Program-made: the position numbers and the translations under genes
The notes under the pieces: model-generated
What the model saw: only the letters and a program-made list of their open reading frames with translations
What the model was told of the DNA's origin: nothing
Databases searched by the model: none
In this document: positions 421 through 27,392 of the stretch, one piece after another
Layout of the letters: each line of letters begins with the position of its first letter
Position numbering within the stretch: the stretch's first letter is position 1
NCBI GenBank assembly: GCA_016748015.1
Contig: JAAOMT010000563.1
Location: 58,598-88,597 of the forward strand
Length of the DNA: 30,000 nucleotides
From: Geosiphon pyriformis
Lineage: Eukaryota > Glomeromycota > Glomeromycetes > Archaeosporales > Geosiphonaceae
Direction: 5' to 3'

Positions 421-1338
421 TTAAACTGTAACAGCGTCAGCTAGCATCTCCCACATTCCATCCAAGTTGCTACCATCCTCAGCCATCTTGAACCCATCCA
501 GAGAACCCAAAAGCACACACTCAGAAAGGTCCTTAAAATGCACCCACTTTTTTTCATCAGCATCCTTAATCTTAAACTTCTAGTGATCCTTATTAGCGTG
601 TTTGTGGATGCTGTTCAAATGAGCATCCAGAAGACCACCCAACCCAATAGATGTCAACACAGCCAAGTGATCCATGTTGAAAAATTCTGAGACAGAACCA
701 ACATCATGATCCACAACCGCTGAAATCAAAGATTCACTAACTAGAATGTAATTCAGAACTTTGCTAACGCCTCTTGAATTGTTCCAAGTAGGAATTCTAG
801 CTAGAGAGTGACCACCAAAAACATTAACCAAACCCAAACCTAAACATTTCCTAAGACTTGTCCCTTTGACTGAATTGTCCTCATTGAAGTTCTCACCCAA
901 AATGACAAAAGAGCTCTTATTGACAGCATCAGCAATAAATGAATTAATAACAGAAGCCTGAGCAAAATGGTCACTACCAGACACACAGGCATAAAGCCCA
1001 ATGACAGACACAGAAAGCTTGTTCTTGAACAAAAGGCAAATTAAAAGAACCCTGCCCTTTACCTCCTCAATTTTAGAAACATGACAAGCTAGAGAGTCAT
1101 TTACAAAAATAGCCACACCAGTCCCATGAAACCCAATGTCCAGACCAGATGTAAAAACTCAGACACCCTCAAACCTTTTCATAATCCATGGTTGTGAACT
1201 AGAACACAACTTGGTTTCCATAACAATTGAGATCAAATTACCAGATTCCCTATGCCAACAATAAATGTCCTTCTGTTTCGCAGGATTGTTCATTCCCCTA
1301 ACATTATACGTGGCAATTCTCCAAATAAAACCAGTCAT
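421..1338 (-). pseudogene. Retrotransposon ORF2 remnant: apurinic-like endonuclease with two in-frame stops, RT missing
   Basis: The frame starts at ATG 1338-1336 with WRIATYNVRGMN, then IVMETKL, the N-terminal signature of the L1/exonuclease-endonuclease-phosphatase fold. It is stopped by TGA at 1159-1161, resumes in the same frame, is stopped again by TAG at 580-582 and ends at TAA 421-423. Between the stops are LGENFNED (family pattern GDFN), SKVLNYILVS (family S-IDYI-VS) and MDHLAVL (family SDH), so two conserved aspartates read as asparagine. An alternative upstream ATG at 1377 overlaps ORF1. The first stop sits where CGA is plausible and the second where TGG (Trp) is plausible. The endonuclease is very likely inactive. 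Confidence 0.82.
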
Positions 1339-3188
1339 TGTGATGAAAAGACAACCAAAGGACCCGAGCCAGCACACAACTGATCCAACTTAGCCAAAAT
1401 CGAACCAATGGAGATGTCAAGAGTGACCAGCTTTGATTCCAGACCACCAACTTTGGAAGTTAGGACTTTGGAACTACTTGGACCCAATAGTGAACTGGTA
1501 ACACCTGAAGAGAAAGAAGTAGGCTGGACAAAAGGATCATCAACCGCCATGTCAAAGTTCAAGTCGGAGTTTGCAACCACAAGAGGGGACTGAGAAACTA
1601 CCACAGAAGGAGCCACATGAGAGGAAGGCGCCAAGGGAGCCGAACTAATATTGTCAAGATGAAAAAGAATGTTTGAAATTTGTTCAGACAGAAGCTCTAC
1701 AGAGTGTTCCAGAAGTGCTAAGCGAGCACTCAAAGGAGAATTGACCACAGGTAGAGGGGGAAGTACTCCACCCGAACTCAAATCACCAGAAGGCAGGAAA
1801 CCGAAACCAGAACCAGCACGAAAACCATAAGAGACTGAAGCAACTGAGATCACTTGAGCCCACGATTTGCCACCAAAAGCAACAGAACGAAAGATCAGCA
1901 CATTCTTCTTCGCATACAATTTGGCCAGCTGAAGACAAGTATTAAGGTTGGTAGGCCTTATAAAAAACTTTGAAGATTTGGAAGCTGATGCAACCTCAGC
2001 ATCACATTCTAAGGCAGAATGACCAAACTTCTCACACCATTCACAGTGAACCAAATCTAGCCTAGCCCATGAGAGTTTTATACCACCAAGGATTGGTTCT
2101 GTGTGAAAAACTGACTCCAAAACCTCATCAGAATCAAAACACACAACAGCACAGTGAACTCTATTACCAGTCTCCAATGACCAATTTATGACACAAGTTT
2201 TCCTACCAGCCCTTTCAAGAAGATTCTCAAGATCATAAGCAGTAGTCCCTACTGGCAAAGTAAACAAAAGTGCTCTAAACTGGTCCCTAGATGCCCAAGT
2301 CTCACAATTGTCCACCACCATAGTCACACGAACTGAGTTTTTACCAATTAGGAAGGACCACCTAGCAGCCAAAGACACAGCCTGTTCCAATTCGGCGAAT
2401 TCCACCACAGTCTTTTGCCATAAACCAATCAACTGGATTTTGATCAACTTAATTTCTCCAAACTTGGATACTGCGGTGACAATCATTTCTTTCGGCGTGT
2501 TCATGGGAATTTCCTTGATTACTATGGTCCGATTTGAGCATATTCTCTGTCTCTTAAGATCACTGTTTACAATGATGTTATTTTTCTTGGCCAATGATGT
2601 GGCCTTTTCCATGCTTTCCAATGAAGTAAATGTTAATCGGATGATCCCTTCAAATTTTAAAAGGGTAGTGGCCCCCCCAAAACCATTGATTCCTGAAAAT
2701 AATTTCCTCACAACCTGAGTTTTAGCCGTTGCCGATTTCCCTTCCACAGCCGAAAGATTGATGTCCAAAGCGAAAGATTTCTTCACAGCCACTTTCATCT
2801 GAGTTTTAACAATTTTGGGGTCCACCCACACCTTTTCCAAAAAGAAAGACAACTGGAGAGGAAGAGAAACTTCCTCTTCATCATCATCCATGTCATAATT
2901 GATAGAGCTGAGAGGGGAACCGATAGTCACACCAGTATTGAAACGCTTCGCATTGGGCGTATTCATTTGGGAGTCAGAGATAACTTTACCATCAAAAACT
3001 TCTCCATCCATATCCATGCTAGTAAGTTGCCCATCTATACTAACAGGTTCACCAACTTTGAGATTTTTATCTGTACTTGAAAGTTTAACACCACTGAGAG
3101 GCTTTTTGACTTTTTGAGTTGAATCACTACCAACTGAACTAGTGGTCAAGACTCTGGCAGACCTTCTCTTAGCACTAGGACCACTCAT
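1335..3188 (-). CDS. Retrotransposon ORF1: gag-like RNA-binding protein with RRM and CCHC zinc knuckle
   Basis: An uninterrupted 617-aa frame. The first ~110 residues are polar and low in complexity, with an acidic DMDDDEEE stretch. A middle segment starting NRTIVIKEIPMNT and ending SVRVTMV (about residues 220-295) has the size and hydrophobic pattern of an RRM fold. Further on, CEWCEKFGHSALEC fits the CX2CX4HX4C zinc knuckle of LINE and retroviral nucleocapsids. The C-terminal third is Ser/Pro/Val-rich with a heptad-like stretch (LALLEHSVELLSEQISNI). In LINEs, ORF1 coats the element RNA to form the ribonucleoprotein. Its TGA stop overlaps the ORF2 start as ATGA. It is intact while ORF2 is broken. 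Confidence 0.82.
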   Translation of the reverse strand: MSGPSAKRRSARVLTTSSVGSDSTQKVKKPLSGVKLSSTDKNLKVGEPVSIDGQLTSMDMDGEVFDGKVISDSQMNTPNAKRFNTGVTIGSPLSSINYDMDDDEEEVSLPLQLSFFLEKVWVDPKIVKTQMKVAVKKSFALDINLSAVEGKSATAKTQVVRKLFSGINGFGGATTLLKFEGIIRLTFTSLESMEKATSLAKKNNIIVNSDLKRQRICSNRTIVIKEIPMNTPKEMIVTAVSKFGEIKLIKIQLIGLWQKTVVEFAELEQAVSLAARWSFLIGKNSVRVTMVVDNCETWASRDQFRALLFTLPVGTTAYDLENLLERAGRKTCVINWSLETGNRVHCAVVCFDSDEVLESVFHTEPILGGIKLSWARLDLVHCEWCEKFGHSALECDAEVASASKSSKFFIRPTNLNTCLQLAKLYAKKNVLIFRSVAFGGKSWAQVISVASVSYGFRAGSGFGFLPSGDLSSGGVLPPLPVVNSPLSARLALLEHSVELLSEQISNILFHLDNISSAPLAPSSHVAPSVVVSQSPLVVANSDLNFDMAVDDPFVQPTSFSSGVTSSLLGPSSSKVLTSKVGGLESKLVTLDISIGSILAKLDQLCAGSGPLVVFSSQ

Positions 3189-3340
3189 AGTGGCAGCCGG
3201 GCCAACAACAAAAGGGTTTGATTCTTGTGAAATATTGGAAGACAGTATGCAAAAACAGAAAAAACTTCTTTCAAAATTTGACTCTTTTTCAGGAATTTGG
3301 GACGAAGAAGAGAAAGAAGTTTATAAATTTTCTTTAATAA

Positions 3341-4201
3341 ATTTAATGTAATTTAATTTTGACCAGCTTAGATGGTTAATTATATGTAAAAAATGCATAA
3401 ATTATGGTTATTTATAAAATATCTTAGTTTTATGTTATAATTAACAATAGAATTGTATTTTGTTAAAGCAATATAAAAAAAATTAACAATATAATTAACC
3501 AAATTTATAATTAAATCTGTTTTATTTTCTATTTTCTATTTTTTTGTTATATGCTTAAATTGTTAACTAATTGGGTATTTTTACTTGCAATTTGCTTTTT
3601 AAATTTAATGTTAAAATTAAAAAAAACCAAAAATTGTTAATTATCTTATAAAAAATTAAAGTTTAATAAAAAACCACTTTATGCTATATTTTTAACTTAT
3701 ATTAATGGATTTGAAAAGTTGGCAAAGCAATTTTTTGTAATAATATTTTAAGTGTTTTGATTCCAATAGTAAATACTTGTAAATGAATAAAACTGCAACT
3801 ACCATTTATTAAAATAGAAAAAAATGGTTTTACATATTATAAATTAGTTTGAATGGTTAATTACATATAAAAAGTGCACGGTTTATATTTACAATAAACA
3901 TGCACATATACTATAATGTAAATTGTAAAAAAGCTACACTTAAAGCAATAAAAAAACTAATACATGGCGAATGGCGAATGGCGAATAGAGTATTGTGATA
4001 AAATTGGCAAAAACAAATTCGCGTGCGAGGATAAGACGCGTGAAAGTATACCATTTTCTCCGTTAAACTTGATGAACATGTCATGATTAGTCAGAGGATT
4101 CGGCGATAGTGCTTAGCCTTAATTGGATTGGTTGGCAGAATGCGCGTTGTTATATCCGCCGCGTGTATTACCGAATCACTTTTCCAACTTATAATTTTGC
4201 C
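3341..4201. other. AT-rich spacer between retroelement and BRL1-like gene
   Basis: No coding potential was seen. It contains a diverged direct repeat (about 3370-3397 and 3851-3878, both reading roughly ATGGTTAATTAnATnTAAAAAnTGCA) and a 7-bp tandem GGCGAAT x3 at 3966-3986. The GC content rises just before the gene (4020-4200), which probably includes its promoter and 5' UTR. A short upstream ATG at 4139 opens a 62-codon frame overlapping the main start at 4202. Confidence 0.6.
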
Positions 4202-13330: not shown

Positions 13331-13977
13331 TTAATTCTTCTTTCCCTGTAATTTAGATGAGAATGAAATTTATTAAAATTGTTCGAGCATCGGAATTTGA
13401 GGGACCTCTCGAAAGAACCCTGGATGTCACTAGTTTCCACCGGTCTGCCATCAGAGATGGCAGGCAGAAAAGCCGGTGGCTTACCTGTACAAGCAGAACG
13501 TTTGCCGTCAGGGATGGGAGGCAAGGTCGTTCTGCTTGCACTTCTGCTCACCGGTCGTCAGAGATGGCAGACTGATGAGCAGGCGTTGCTTCGAGATCAC
13601 CGTCAGAGATGGCAGGTGATTGTCTCTCGTCGCACTTGCAGCAGCGTCCGCCGTCAGAGATGGCAAGTAGGACGTGTGAAAACGAATAAACTCACCTTAG
13701 CCATTCTCACAGTACCCTCAAGGGCGCCGACAAATGCGACGGTCAAAATAACAGCGTAAACACCAAGAAACGCTTTGTTCAGTTTTCCACCTCTAAGATA
13801 AAGGGGTTTATGGGAAGACTTGTTGACCAAGACGAAACCGAATAAATGGTTGTCATAATATAGTTTTCCGAGTTTTTATTAATTCAAAAGGGGTATGTTA
13901 CATCCAATTTTTTTTACCTGAAAATGTTTTTGTAATTCAATCACTCTATTTTCTGGGGGTTTACCGAATAATCCCAT
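13331..13977 (-). CDS. COX7A: Cytochrome c oxidase subunit VIIa-like protein (65 aa, three exons)
   Basis: Exons in reading order: 13977-13918 (MGLFGKPPENRVIELQKHFQ), 13818-13696 (SSHKPLYLRGGKLNKAFLG, then a membrane helix VYAVILTVAFVGALEGTVRMAK) and 13345-13331 (GKKN, stop). The introns are 13819-13917 and 13346-13695, both GT-AG and both phase 0. The pattern FQ-x(4-6)-PLYL(R/K)GG followed by a single membrane helix and a short basic tail is that of subunit VIIa, a nuclear-encoded inner-membrane subunit of respiratory complex IV. The length fits. Because every exon is short, this gene is easily missed; frames crossing 13353-13759 are not real coding. The family assignment rests on a short protein, so it is good but not certain. 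Confidence 0.75.
13437..13674 (-). repeat. Array of five hairpins with a common 13-nt loop and different paired stems, inside the COX7a-like intron
   Basis: On the sense (minus) strand each unit has the loop TGCCATCTCTGAC (one copy TCCCATCCCTGAC, one ending GAT) between complementary arms. Loops on plus coordinates: 13450-13462, 13507-13519, 13557-13569, 13602-13614, 13653-13665. Arms: CCACCGG and CTGCC (13437-13449) with GGCAG and CCGGTGG (13463-13479); CAAGCAGAACG and TTGCC (13490-13506) with GGCAA and CGTTCTGCTTG (13520-13538); CTGCTCA and GTC (13544-13556) with GAC and TGAGCAG (13570-13582); ATCACC with GGTGAT (13596-13601, 13615-13620); CGTCC with GGACG (13645-13649, 13670-13674). Arms differ in sequence but pair within each unit. 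The block is visibly GC-richer than its surroundings. Confidence 0.88.
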
Positions 13978-25593: not shown

Positions 25594-26730
25594 TTATAAC
25601 AATAGGTTGGAGATTATGGTAGTTATAAATAAAACAGAAATAAAGGAAAGAGGTAATAGCGAAGTTGCAAGGGAGCTTGCAGCAGTACCATCCTTGCTAG
25701 CACTATCACTAGCACTGTTACTTGAATCTTGCGGACTGTCCGAGGTGCTGCCTTTGGTAGTCGTTGATGATGAAGTGGTATTAGAAGCTTTAATATTTGC
25801 CACATTTCCAGAAAGAGTTTGATAAGGATTTTGGTCACCGAGACAAGAGGCGATAGTTTGAGGCCGGTAACCAGCTTTTTTAATTATAGGAACAATAATT
25901 GGTACAGCATTAACAGCAATTCTATGAATATCATGTTCAAGAGAACAAACACCACGTCCAGAATTAGGTGTTTGCATCCAATTTGTGAGATTAGAGACAA
26001 TCCAATCAGGATTGAATTTTGTTCCACTTGCAGCGGAGAAGTCACCACTATCGAAACTCCAGCCGACTATAATATATCCTAACAATTTCATAATGGCGCG
26101 AACCCGATTATCAATATCACCCTGAGGAGGACGCATATATTTGGGAACGATACCAGTCGAATCTTTGATGATTTTTTCGGTCCAAAGCATTTCAGCAATA
26201 ATTTCTTCGTTGGTTTGAGTGGTTAAGGGAGTATGAGACCAAGTGTGAACACCGATCTGATGTCCAAGTTGTAAAGTTTTGTTCAGAGTGGCCGGAAATT
26301 CGACCACACGTGATCCAACAATAAAGAATGTTGCTTTGATTTGAAGAGTATCAAGTATCTTCAAGAGATTTCCGGTTTCTGATGAGGCCGGACCATCATC
26401 AAAAGTAAGGCCCCAATCATTTTTATTCGGGCAAAAGAAAACATCATCTTTTGATTCACAATGATCACAACTCCAGGCACAGTTCGGATTGCTTGCGCCT
26501 TTTGGTGGGCAGTCACTTATAGATTTTCTTACTGGAATATTTGGAATTTGGGTCATATCAATTTTACGGAACCAAGGTTGATTAATTGGTGGTGGAGCAT
26601 CCATTGGTGGCCACCCTGTTAATTGCGCTTGCTTGCTTCCAGGAATAGAAACAGCAGGGGGATCGGCAGCCATCGCCGTAACAGTCAAACTAAGAAAAGC
26701 TAAAAACAGATGGTTCAACTTCATTTTCAC
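25594..26730 (-). CDS. Secreted, GPI-anchored chitin deacetylase-like CE4 polysaccharide deacetylase (378 aa, one exon)
   Basis: A signal peptide (KLNHLFLAFLSLTVTAMA, cut near residue 21) is followed by a Cys-containing N-terminal part. The NodB/CE4 domain carries its motifs in order: TFDDGP at 109-114 (catalytic base and metal Asp), HTWSH at 162-166 (metal His pair), RPPQGD at 200-205, WSFDSGDF at 224-231 and LEHDIH at 264-269. The tail is a Ser/Thr/Asp-rich linker ending in a hydrophobic segment (SFISVLFITTIISNLLL), as in GPI-anchored proteins. Such enzymes remove acetyl groups from wall chitin to give chitosan. Glutamine at 203 replaces the aromatic residue usual in motif 3. It is the only complete gene here without an intron. 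Confidence 0.92.
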   Translation of the reverse strand: MKMKLNHLFLAFLSLTVTAMAADPPAVSIPGSKQAQLTGWPPMDAPPPINQPWFRKIDMTQIPNIPVRKSISDCPPKGASNPNCAWSCDHCESKDDVFFCPNKNDWGLTFDDGPASSETGNLLKILDTLQIKATFFIVGSRVVEFPATLNKTLQLGHQIGVHTWSHTPLTTQTNEEIIAEMLWTEKIIKDSTGIVPKYMRPPQGDIDNRVRAIMKLLGYIIVGWSFDSGDFSAASGTKFNPDWIVSNLTNWMQTPNSGRGVCSLEHDIHRIAVNAVPIIVPIIKKAGYRPQTIASCLGDQNPYQTLSGNVANIKASNTTSSSTTTKGSTSDSPQDSSNSASDSASKDGTAASSLATSLLPLSFISVLFITTIISNLLL

Positions 26731-27392
26731 GAATGAAAGGTTGGTTTTGAGGAGATTGAAAACTATGAATTTTCCTTTTTTCTATAAAGGTAATATTCCC
26801 AATTAGTGAGTGAGTGAGGCTCCCAGGTGATGAATGAAATCAGCGGTTTTTAAGGTTGCAATTTCACTTGACAAGTAAGATTTGGACCAGCCACTTGAGC
26901 AAGAGTTTTAGGAGAGAAGTGAGAAGAGGGTGGTGGGATTTAAGTGAGAGAGCGTTAGGAAAGGAAAGGAAAGGAAAGGAAAGGAAAGAGAAGGGAAGAG
27001 AAGGGAGCGGAAAGAGAATGGAGTGGGAAGAAAGGAAGGAGTCAATGATTGAAAGGACTGAAAAGGATGGAGTATAAATGAACAAACCACTTGAAATGAG
27101 AAAATCATTTTTTTATATAGATGAATCTTAGCTGCTGCATGCTAATAATTATTTTCGTTTTTCCGGTAATACATTGTACACAAATTTGGAACCACATTTA
27201 ATCACGGTTAGGCCGAACACGCATTTATAATTTATATTTTGTTTGTGACAAAAGGATTTATTTTAGTCACTGATCAATTGTTTATTATTTTGGTTGACGA
27301 ACCAAATTTTGATGACATAAGAGTTTAGATTTTCAATAAATGAAATACGTTATTGGTGTTGAAAAAAAAAAATTTTGTCAAACAATTTTCAA
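26731..27392. promoter_or_regulatory. Divergent upstream region of chitin deacetylase and XPA/RAD14, with polypurine tract
   Basis: The spacer holds both promoters. A nearly pure purine tract on the plus strand spans about 26945-27065, including AAAGG repeated about six times (26959-26988). No coding signal. Specific promoter elements could not be resolved. Confidence 0.55.
26959..26988. repeat. AAAGG pentanucleotide microsatellite
   Basis: About six uninterrupted AAAGG units at the core of a longer polypurine stretch, 230-260 bp upstream of the chitin deacetylase start. Confidence 0.85.

Follow-up and report, generated by a model that had tools for sequence, protein, structure and literature searches.

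Geosiphon is a glomeromycotan fungus that harbours an intracellular Nostoc symbiont. The window analysed here, meaning the whole stretch of 30,000 nucleotides taken from contig JAAOMT010000563.1 of the Geosiphon pyriformis assembly, carries on its minus strand a COX7a-like gene, and the last intron of this gene contains an array of five hairpins built around one common word. The coding sequence was assigned through Pfam, in which a query of 52 codons, with an approximate 5' exon border, matched PF02238 at 26.4 bits (cut-off 22.1); a protein search with the same stretch (13696-13851) returned no candidate. The predicted intron runs from a donor site reading GTGAGT to an acceptor site reading TTACAG, and the exon beyond it gives, as read by eye, a predicted protein end of GKKN followed by a stop codon. 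An earlier note on this DNA had placed the array in a 350-nt last intron of a COX7a-like gene, and this placement holds, with the splice sites inferred and the adjoining upstream exon identified as COX7a by Pfam. By comparison, a CBS-domain gene of the same window has an intron of 112 nt. The window also encodes a CBS-domain protein with 100% identity to G. pyriformis G9A89_017902. The features discussed below are as follows, with no strand assigned to the module or its units.

13696-13851, minus strand: COX7a-like coding sequence, homologous to cytochrome c oxidase subunit VIIa
13346-13695, minus strand: 350-nt final intron of this gene, predicted from splice sites
13398-13682: G+C-rich hairpin module, 285 nt, 56% G+C, delimited by base counts along the intron
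13437-13479: unit 1, loop ATCAGAGATGGCA at 13450-13462, CTGCC/GGCAG as upper stem, a bulge of 4 nt on the 3' side (plus strand), lower stem CCACCGG/CCGGTGG of 7 bp (8 bp in a constrained fold)
13490-13538: unit 2, loop GTCAGGGATGGGA at 13507-13519, 5-6 bp in the upper stem, a bulge of 2 nt on the 3' side (plus strand), perfect lower stem of 11 bp (CAAGCAGAACG/CGTTCTGCTTG)
13544-13582: unit 3, exact loop 13557-13569, stem of 13 positions with one G-U and one C-A
13592-13629: unit 4, exact loop 13602-13614, upper stem of 5 bp (6 without the bulge), lower stem of 5 bp beyond a 5-nt bulge on the 3' side (plus strand)
13645-13674: unit 5, exact loop 13653-13665, poor upper stem, lower stem CGTCC/GGACG, one out of register

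Elsewhere in the window, two long open frames lie on the minus strand, one at 1335-3320 with a weak RRM match (20.3 bits, just under the Pfam cut-off of 20.7) and one at 580-1158 with no Pfam family at E 0.01; both may be parts of something like a glomeromycotan non-LTR element. A polysaccharide deacetylase gene (PF01522, E 2e-34), perhaps a chitin deacetylase, occupies 25594-26781 on the minus strand.

Architecture of the hairpin module

The five units share a 13-mer, GTCAGAGATGGCA on the plus strand and TGCCATCTCTGAC when read along the gene, which starts at 13450, 13507, 13557, 13602 and 13653. The resulting spacings of 57, 50, 45 and 51 nt agree with the range of 45-57 nt given in the earlier note, and the spacers between loops (44, 37, 32 and 38 nt) differ in sequence. 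The description of a loop common to five units needs qualification, because the 13-mer is exact in units 3, 4 and 5 only, and unit 1 retains 12 and unit 2 11 of the 13 positions. When the 13-mer is held open, the upper stem measures 5 bp in unit 1, 6 bp in unit 2 and 5 bp in unit 4; a same-side bulge of 4, 2 and 5 nt, respectively, separates it from a lower stem of 8 bp in unit 1, 11 bp in unit 2 and 5 bp in unit 4. Unit 3 has stems of 5 and 8 bp on either side of a one-by-one mismatch, and unit 5 a single 5-bp helix with three outer pairs. Units 1 to 4 thus have a common layout of upper stem, irregularity and lower stem on differing stem sequences. The stem lengths first reported, a perfect 11 bp in unit 2 and 7 bp in units 1 and 3, were reproduced.

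The array had been described as GC-richer than its host intron, and base counts bear this out: the intron outside the module has 28% G+C (64 counted bases), with a sharp break at the border, and the G+C-rich module, at about 13398-13682, is wider than the array first outlined. We compared it with a non-random 230-kb sample that consisted of the window and 20 loci picked for near-matches to the 13-mer. Among 4,495 windows of 285 nt in this sample the top five by G+C all overlap the module, and when the sample is cut into 120-nt windows (5,708), the three lowest-energy folds all lie in the array. Constant-loop arrays were also sought throughout these 230 kb, which yielded the present array and one A+T-rich, chance-like case (L018); beyond the array, the locus with the strongest fold (L020:6600-6760) contains no constant-loop hairpin array. 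Fold z-scores for 13420-13700 are −5.6 on the minus and −5.3 on the plus strand. The border regions 13370-13439 and 13660-13711, themselves approximate, have no direct words of 5-12 nt and no inverted words of 6-12 nt in common, words of the kind that a target-site duplication or terminal inverted repeats would leave. A small imperfect palindrome (AGGGACCTCTCGAAAGAACCCT, 13400-13421) marks the left end of the module without belonging to any of the five units, and a very large palindrome spanning 13398-13605 appears to be built mostly from nested unit hairpins.

Pairing, covariation and likeness between units

Pairing across the loops is far above expectation. Among the first six in-register pairs of each unit, 27 of 30 are formed when G-U is allowed and 23 of 30 are Watson-Crick, against 11.9 +/- 2.6 and 7.8 +/- 2.4 in mononucleotide shuffles of the spacers, none of 20,000 of which scored as high on either count. 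The summed duplex energy of the units' own arms is −77.6 kcal/mol, compared with −32.9 +/- 6.0 after shuffling (0 of 3,000). Arms are in register in units 1 to 4 and poorly so in unit 5, and the left arm finds its best partner in its own right arm in four of the five units, the exception being unit 5, whose left arm favours the right arm of unit 2 (−15.4 versus −10.6).

In a five-unit alignment on the plus strand, pairing in the outer six pairs reaches 90%, and five of these six have changes on both sides. The test of covariation is a small one, with five units and with two of the six pairs hardly varying, and in it the outer stem scored 0.80, against 0.39 +/- 0.12 when partners were shuffled (1 of 500 as high). 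This score falls to 0.07-0.22 when the register is slid by 1-3 columns, so the claim that the stems covary is upheld for the outer stem and in the correct register only. The minus strand behaves similarly (0.70 versus 0.37 +/- 0.09; 0 of 500). One of the five covariation measures, that of further pair types, is unexceptional (88 of 500 on the plus strand, 100 of 500 on the minus). The two pairs adjacent to the loop are C-G in four of the five units and thus nearly invariant, so that variation is found mostly in the outer four pairs. A small inner hairpin in and beside the 13-mer is 93% paired with no both-side change, and covariation therefore lends it no support.

The stems had also been called unrelated in sequence, and this claim is nearly correct. 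Local alignments of whole spacers sum to 86, against 80.5 +/- 4.7 in shuffled sequences (p = 0.14; lag-2 pairs p = 0.09), and the spacers are thus without significant similarity; on the other side, two C-G pairs recur and, before correction, p falls below 0.05 in 4 of 20 comparisons of flanks anchored on the loop, a likeness that is due at least partly to the recurrence of these loop-adjacent pairs. The spacer left of unit 1 resembles that left of unit 3 (p = 0.04, uncorrected), and CACCGGTC is common to both left arms. Spacer 1 matches the reverse complement of spacer 2 along most of its length (0 of 1,000 shuffles), so the palindrome of unit 2 extends into the facing arms of units 1 and 3. 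A two-unit period seen in direct self-alignment (units 1-2-3 against units 3-4-5) was rejected because it is not significant once the loops are removed (lag 2, p = 0.09). Likewise, the view that this is not a simple tandem repeat was confirmed: Tandem Repeats Finder reports none there at a minimum score of 40, and an ordinary tandem repeat or minisatellite would also be at odds with spacers that are not significantly alike.

Copy number and comparison with known systems

Searches of the 124.7-Mb assembly indicate a single locus. Among the matches listed, the exact 13-mer occurs in three copies, all in the array. With up to one mismatch there are at least 60 sites (30 per strand) against 12 for a reversed control, and the array accounts for the three exact copies and unit 1. 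The flanks of the 56 other listed sites, 20 in 10-kb loci and 36 in 126-base stretches, were examined for arms. Six of six in-register pairs were found at one of these 56 matches (L025; about 0.2 expected from background), at least five at two (about 2.1 expected), and runs of six pairs with bulges of up to 2 nt at three. A 19-mer search that allowed three mismatches at most identified the five units and one further site (L052), which has no arms; its control gave none. There are three places with two copies of AGAGATGG at a distance of 30-60 nt, and two of these places lie within the array; the reversed control also gave three. A search with the whole module, in which very common words were skipped, returned the self-match only. 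The array is a single-locus feature of this assembly.

These counts bear on both sides of the earlier note. Its suggestion of a tiny mobile element is not borne out, since among the matches listed the exact word is confined to the array and the 19-mer adds one armless site; a dispersed element of the MITE, REPIN or SDR type was rejected because copies at several loci are not found in the organism's own assembly. The note had also named genomic copies without complementary flanks as evidence against its reading, and taken literally this is what we find, with six in-register pairs absent from 55 of the 56 one-mismatch copies listed; such copies are probably chance matches, however, and we therefore do not count them against the array itself. 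Fifteen of the 56 read GTCAAAGATGGCA: L017, L019, L030, L034, L037, L038, L053 and L057, all in one repeated sequence; L011, L042, L047 and L050, all in another; and L021, L041 and L055. The repeated sequences are perhaps multicopy genes or transposons.

Beyond Geosiphon, an exact two-copy pattern was found at four loci in genomes of bacterial or archaeal species and in no viral contig, and every copy at these four loci has at most four of six in-register pairs. One locus, L067 of an uncultured Lachnospiraceae, has on its reverse strand at about 3500-3710 a 50-nt tandem repeat with TCAGAGATGGCA; its flanks are near-identical from copy to copy, whereas the stems of the Geosiphon array differ. 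A plasmid search gave no match, and a phage search gave three short matches, spread over two phages, with a best E of 0.02. No homologue of the module was found in the bacterial and archaeal, viral, plasmid and phage sequences searched.

Several known classes of element were considered. Rfam, at E up to 10, has no family in the module, its two snoRNA-family matches both lying outside the array, and a tRNA gene search of the window found none; a known RNA family and a tRNA were thus rejected. Protein coding on the plus strand was set aside because a 130-codon open frame matched one protein, the window's own. In a CRISPR array unrelated spacers separate the repeats, which does not fit spacer ends that are complementary across each repeat. 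Iron-responsive elements are known from untranslated regions and combine a conserved CAGUGN loop and a short upper stem with an asymmetric bulge (a bulged C on the 5' side) and a lower stem whose sequence is free. The array units are similar in having a loop, an upper stem, a bulge and a free lower stem, but an iron-responsive element was rejected: Rfam gave no match, the loop on the plus strand holds CAGAGA instead of CAGUGN, and the array is intronic. Hairpins bound by the SAM domain of Smaug or Vts1 are read through a CNGG loop, with a stem of free sequence; they differ from the array in that the required CNGG is missing from the 13-mer. Cyanobacterial small dispersed repeats (SDRs) are tiny palindromic repeats with compensatory stem changes, and REPINs, as described in the part of the literature available, are likewise tiny palindromic elements; both are dispersed in many copies, unlike the Geosiphon array at its one locus. 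We know of no named element with this layout, and a literature search, largely outside subscription journals, found no description of such an array in the texts available.

In its working, the nearest analogue may be RsmZ, which we regard as no relative of the array. The Csr/Rsm sponge RNAs (CsrB, RsmZ), according to the accessible parts of their literature, also place multiple hairpins with a constant loop motif on one RNA and bind one protein multivalently, and RsmZ is reported to sequester up to five RsmE dimers (PMC12047976, available text). They are, however, free small RNAs of bacteria with a GGA loop, compared with a fungal intron, a 13-nt loop and a putative partner here. Several hairpins with one loop are present in the array too; that loop is open on the minus strand in three of the five units (0.72-0.73 mean unpaired in units 2-4; 0.30 in unit 1 and 0.37 in unit 5) and largely self-paired on the plus strand in four (units 1, 3, 4 and 5; 0.24-0.40).

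Possible origins: selection, template switching and others

The array is real, statistically strong and single-locus; its function we infer, together with selection, a binding partner, action at the RNA level and an effect on COX7a. Selection on a structure, one of the two explanations in the earlier note, is possible. Because the loop is kept, pairing is kept and the spacers lack significant similarity, we prefer, tentatively and with less than even confidence, a reading in which the array of five loop-specific hairpins is a multivalent docking platform selected for loop and structure. What is maintained would be the 13-nt loop together with a stem of nearly any sequence, and the putative partner would be a factor specific for sequence and structure that is offered several copies of one binding site. 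Such a factor might act on the COX7a pre-mRNA, modulating its splicing or accumulation, or on an antisense RNA. The excess of in-register pairing, the covariation of the outer stem, the common layout of the units and the stability of their folds speak for this reading; the single locus, the loop that is largely self-paired on the plus strand and open on the minus strand in units 2-4 only, the weak pairing of unit 5, the small size of the covariation test and the even split of departures described below speak against it. If the units are of common descent, their pattern is the one that would be expected of a factor that reads the loop and needs a helix, but hardly the sequence of the stem.

Template switching during replication is a serious rival that was absent from the earlier note's two explanations. 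Here the flank of a short repeated word would have been copied repeatedly in inverted form, with no structure selected and with the common word as the remnant of an older short repeat. The mechanism is a published one: in the text available of PMC8794818, template switching can create perfect stems in one event and can fix stems with the loop retained. The hairpins described there resemble ours in having perfect, arbitrary stems around a retained loop, and differ in being stems of RNA genes (microRNA, rRNA) rather than five units on one word. The departures from pairing are informative in this respect. Within the six pairs closest to the loop, the cells that depart from Watson-Crick pairing number seven, and every one is a transition (p = 0.0005 for an expectation of one third, six pairs being the best of five lengths tried). 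On the plus strand they comprise four G-U and three A-C, the latter reading as G-U on the minus strand. This split favours neither strand, whereas selection on an RNA from one strand would be expected to leave G-U mainly on the strand concerned; it looks more like the strand-neutral decay of once-perfect inverted copies, or like a DNA-level structure. The inverted match of spacer 1 to spacer 2 beyond the stem of unit 2 and the presence of CACCGGTC in the left arms of units 1 and 3 are also as template switching would leave them. Nevertheless, the same 13 nt would have to be left as the loop several times between spacers without significant similarity, the loop too should erode under neutral decay, and the excess of transitions, which persists over five pairs (p = 0.012), is not significant over 8, 10 or 13 pairs (p = 0.088, 0.056 and 0.090). 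As a consequence of the even split and the published mechanism, we keep our preference for selection tentative and regard a neutral origin as a less probable explanation that still deserves substantial weight. The two can be combined, as the stems may have been born by template switching and then retained for presenting the loop.

Other origins appear less probable. The module could be a non-coding RNA gene in its own right, placed on the plus strand, antisense to COX7a and inserted in its intron, which we consider unlikely. Plus-strand folds are better in four of the five single units and over the whole intron (−136.3 versus −119.0 kcal/mol), and the inner hairpin within the 13-mer (GUCA-GAGA-UGGC or CCGUC-AGA-GAUGG) stays paired on this strand through G-U at two one-sided changes that read as A-C on the minus strand. 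On the other hand, the plus strand is better in only three of the five units when the 13-mer is held open, the z-scores of the array are about equal on the two strands, and neither an Rfam family nor a tRNA gene was found, as described above. DNA from elsewhere (mitochondrial hairpin elements, the cyanobacterial symbiont or another microbe) with no role in its present place would account for a base composition that differs from the host; set against the four bacterial or archaeal loci without a copy above four of six pairs, the absence of viral contigs and of plasmid matches, and the three short, weak phage matches, such an origin is quite improbable. Least credible of all is a tiny mobile element that inserts widely and copies its flank inverted. 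The G+C break within the intron is insertion-like, but the single locus disfavours such an element, no common direct or inverted words were seen around the approximate module borders, and the listed one-mismatch copies carry arms no more often than background.

If the array has been selected, as the docking-platform model holds, it would be a natural demonstration that the unit of recognition is a loop with a helix and not the sequence of the stem, and it would provide a test case for the way in which compensatory changes in stems come about, in steps or through template switching. If it has not been selected, template switching would mimic the covariation of a functional RNA, which would call for caution in covariation tests. 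There is, finally, an outside chance that the array represents a new eukaryotic regulatory element, in which intronic hairpins are read via an invariant 13-nt loop and their stems are freely replaced, each time by templated inversion, and retained for presenting the loop, and which regulates a respiratory-chain gene. Were this regulatory reading true, it would mean control of a nuclear respiratory-chain gene in the host of a photosynthetic symbiont.
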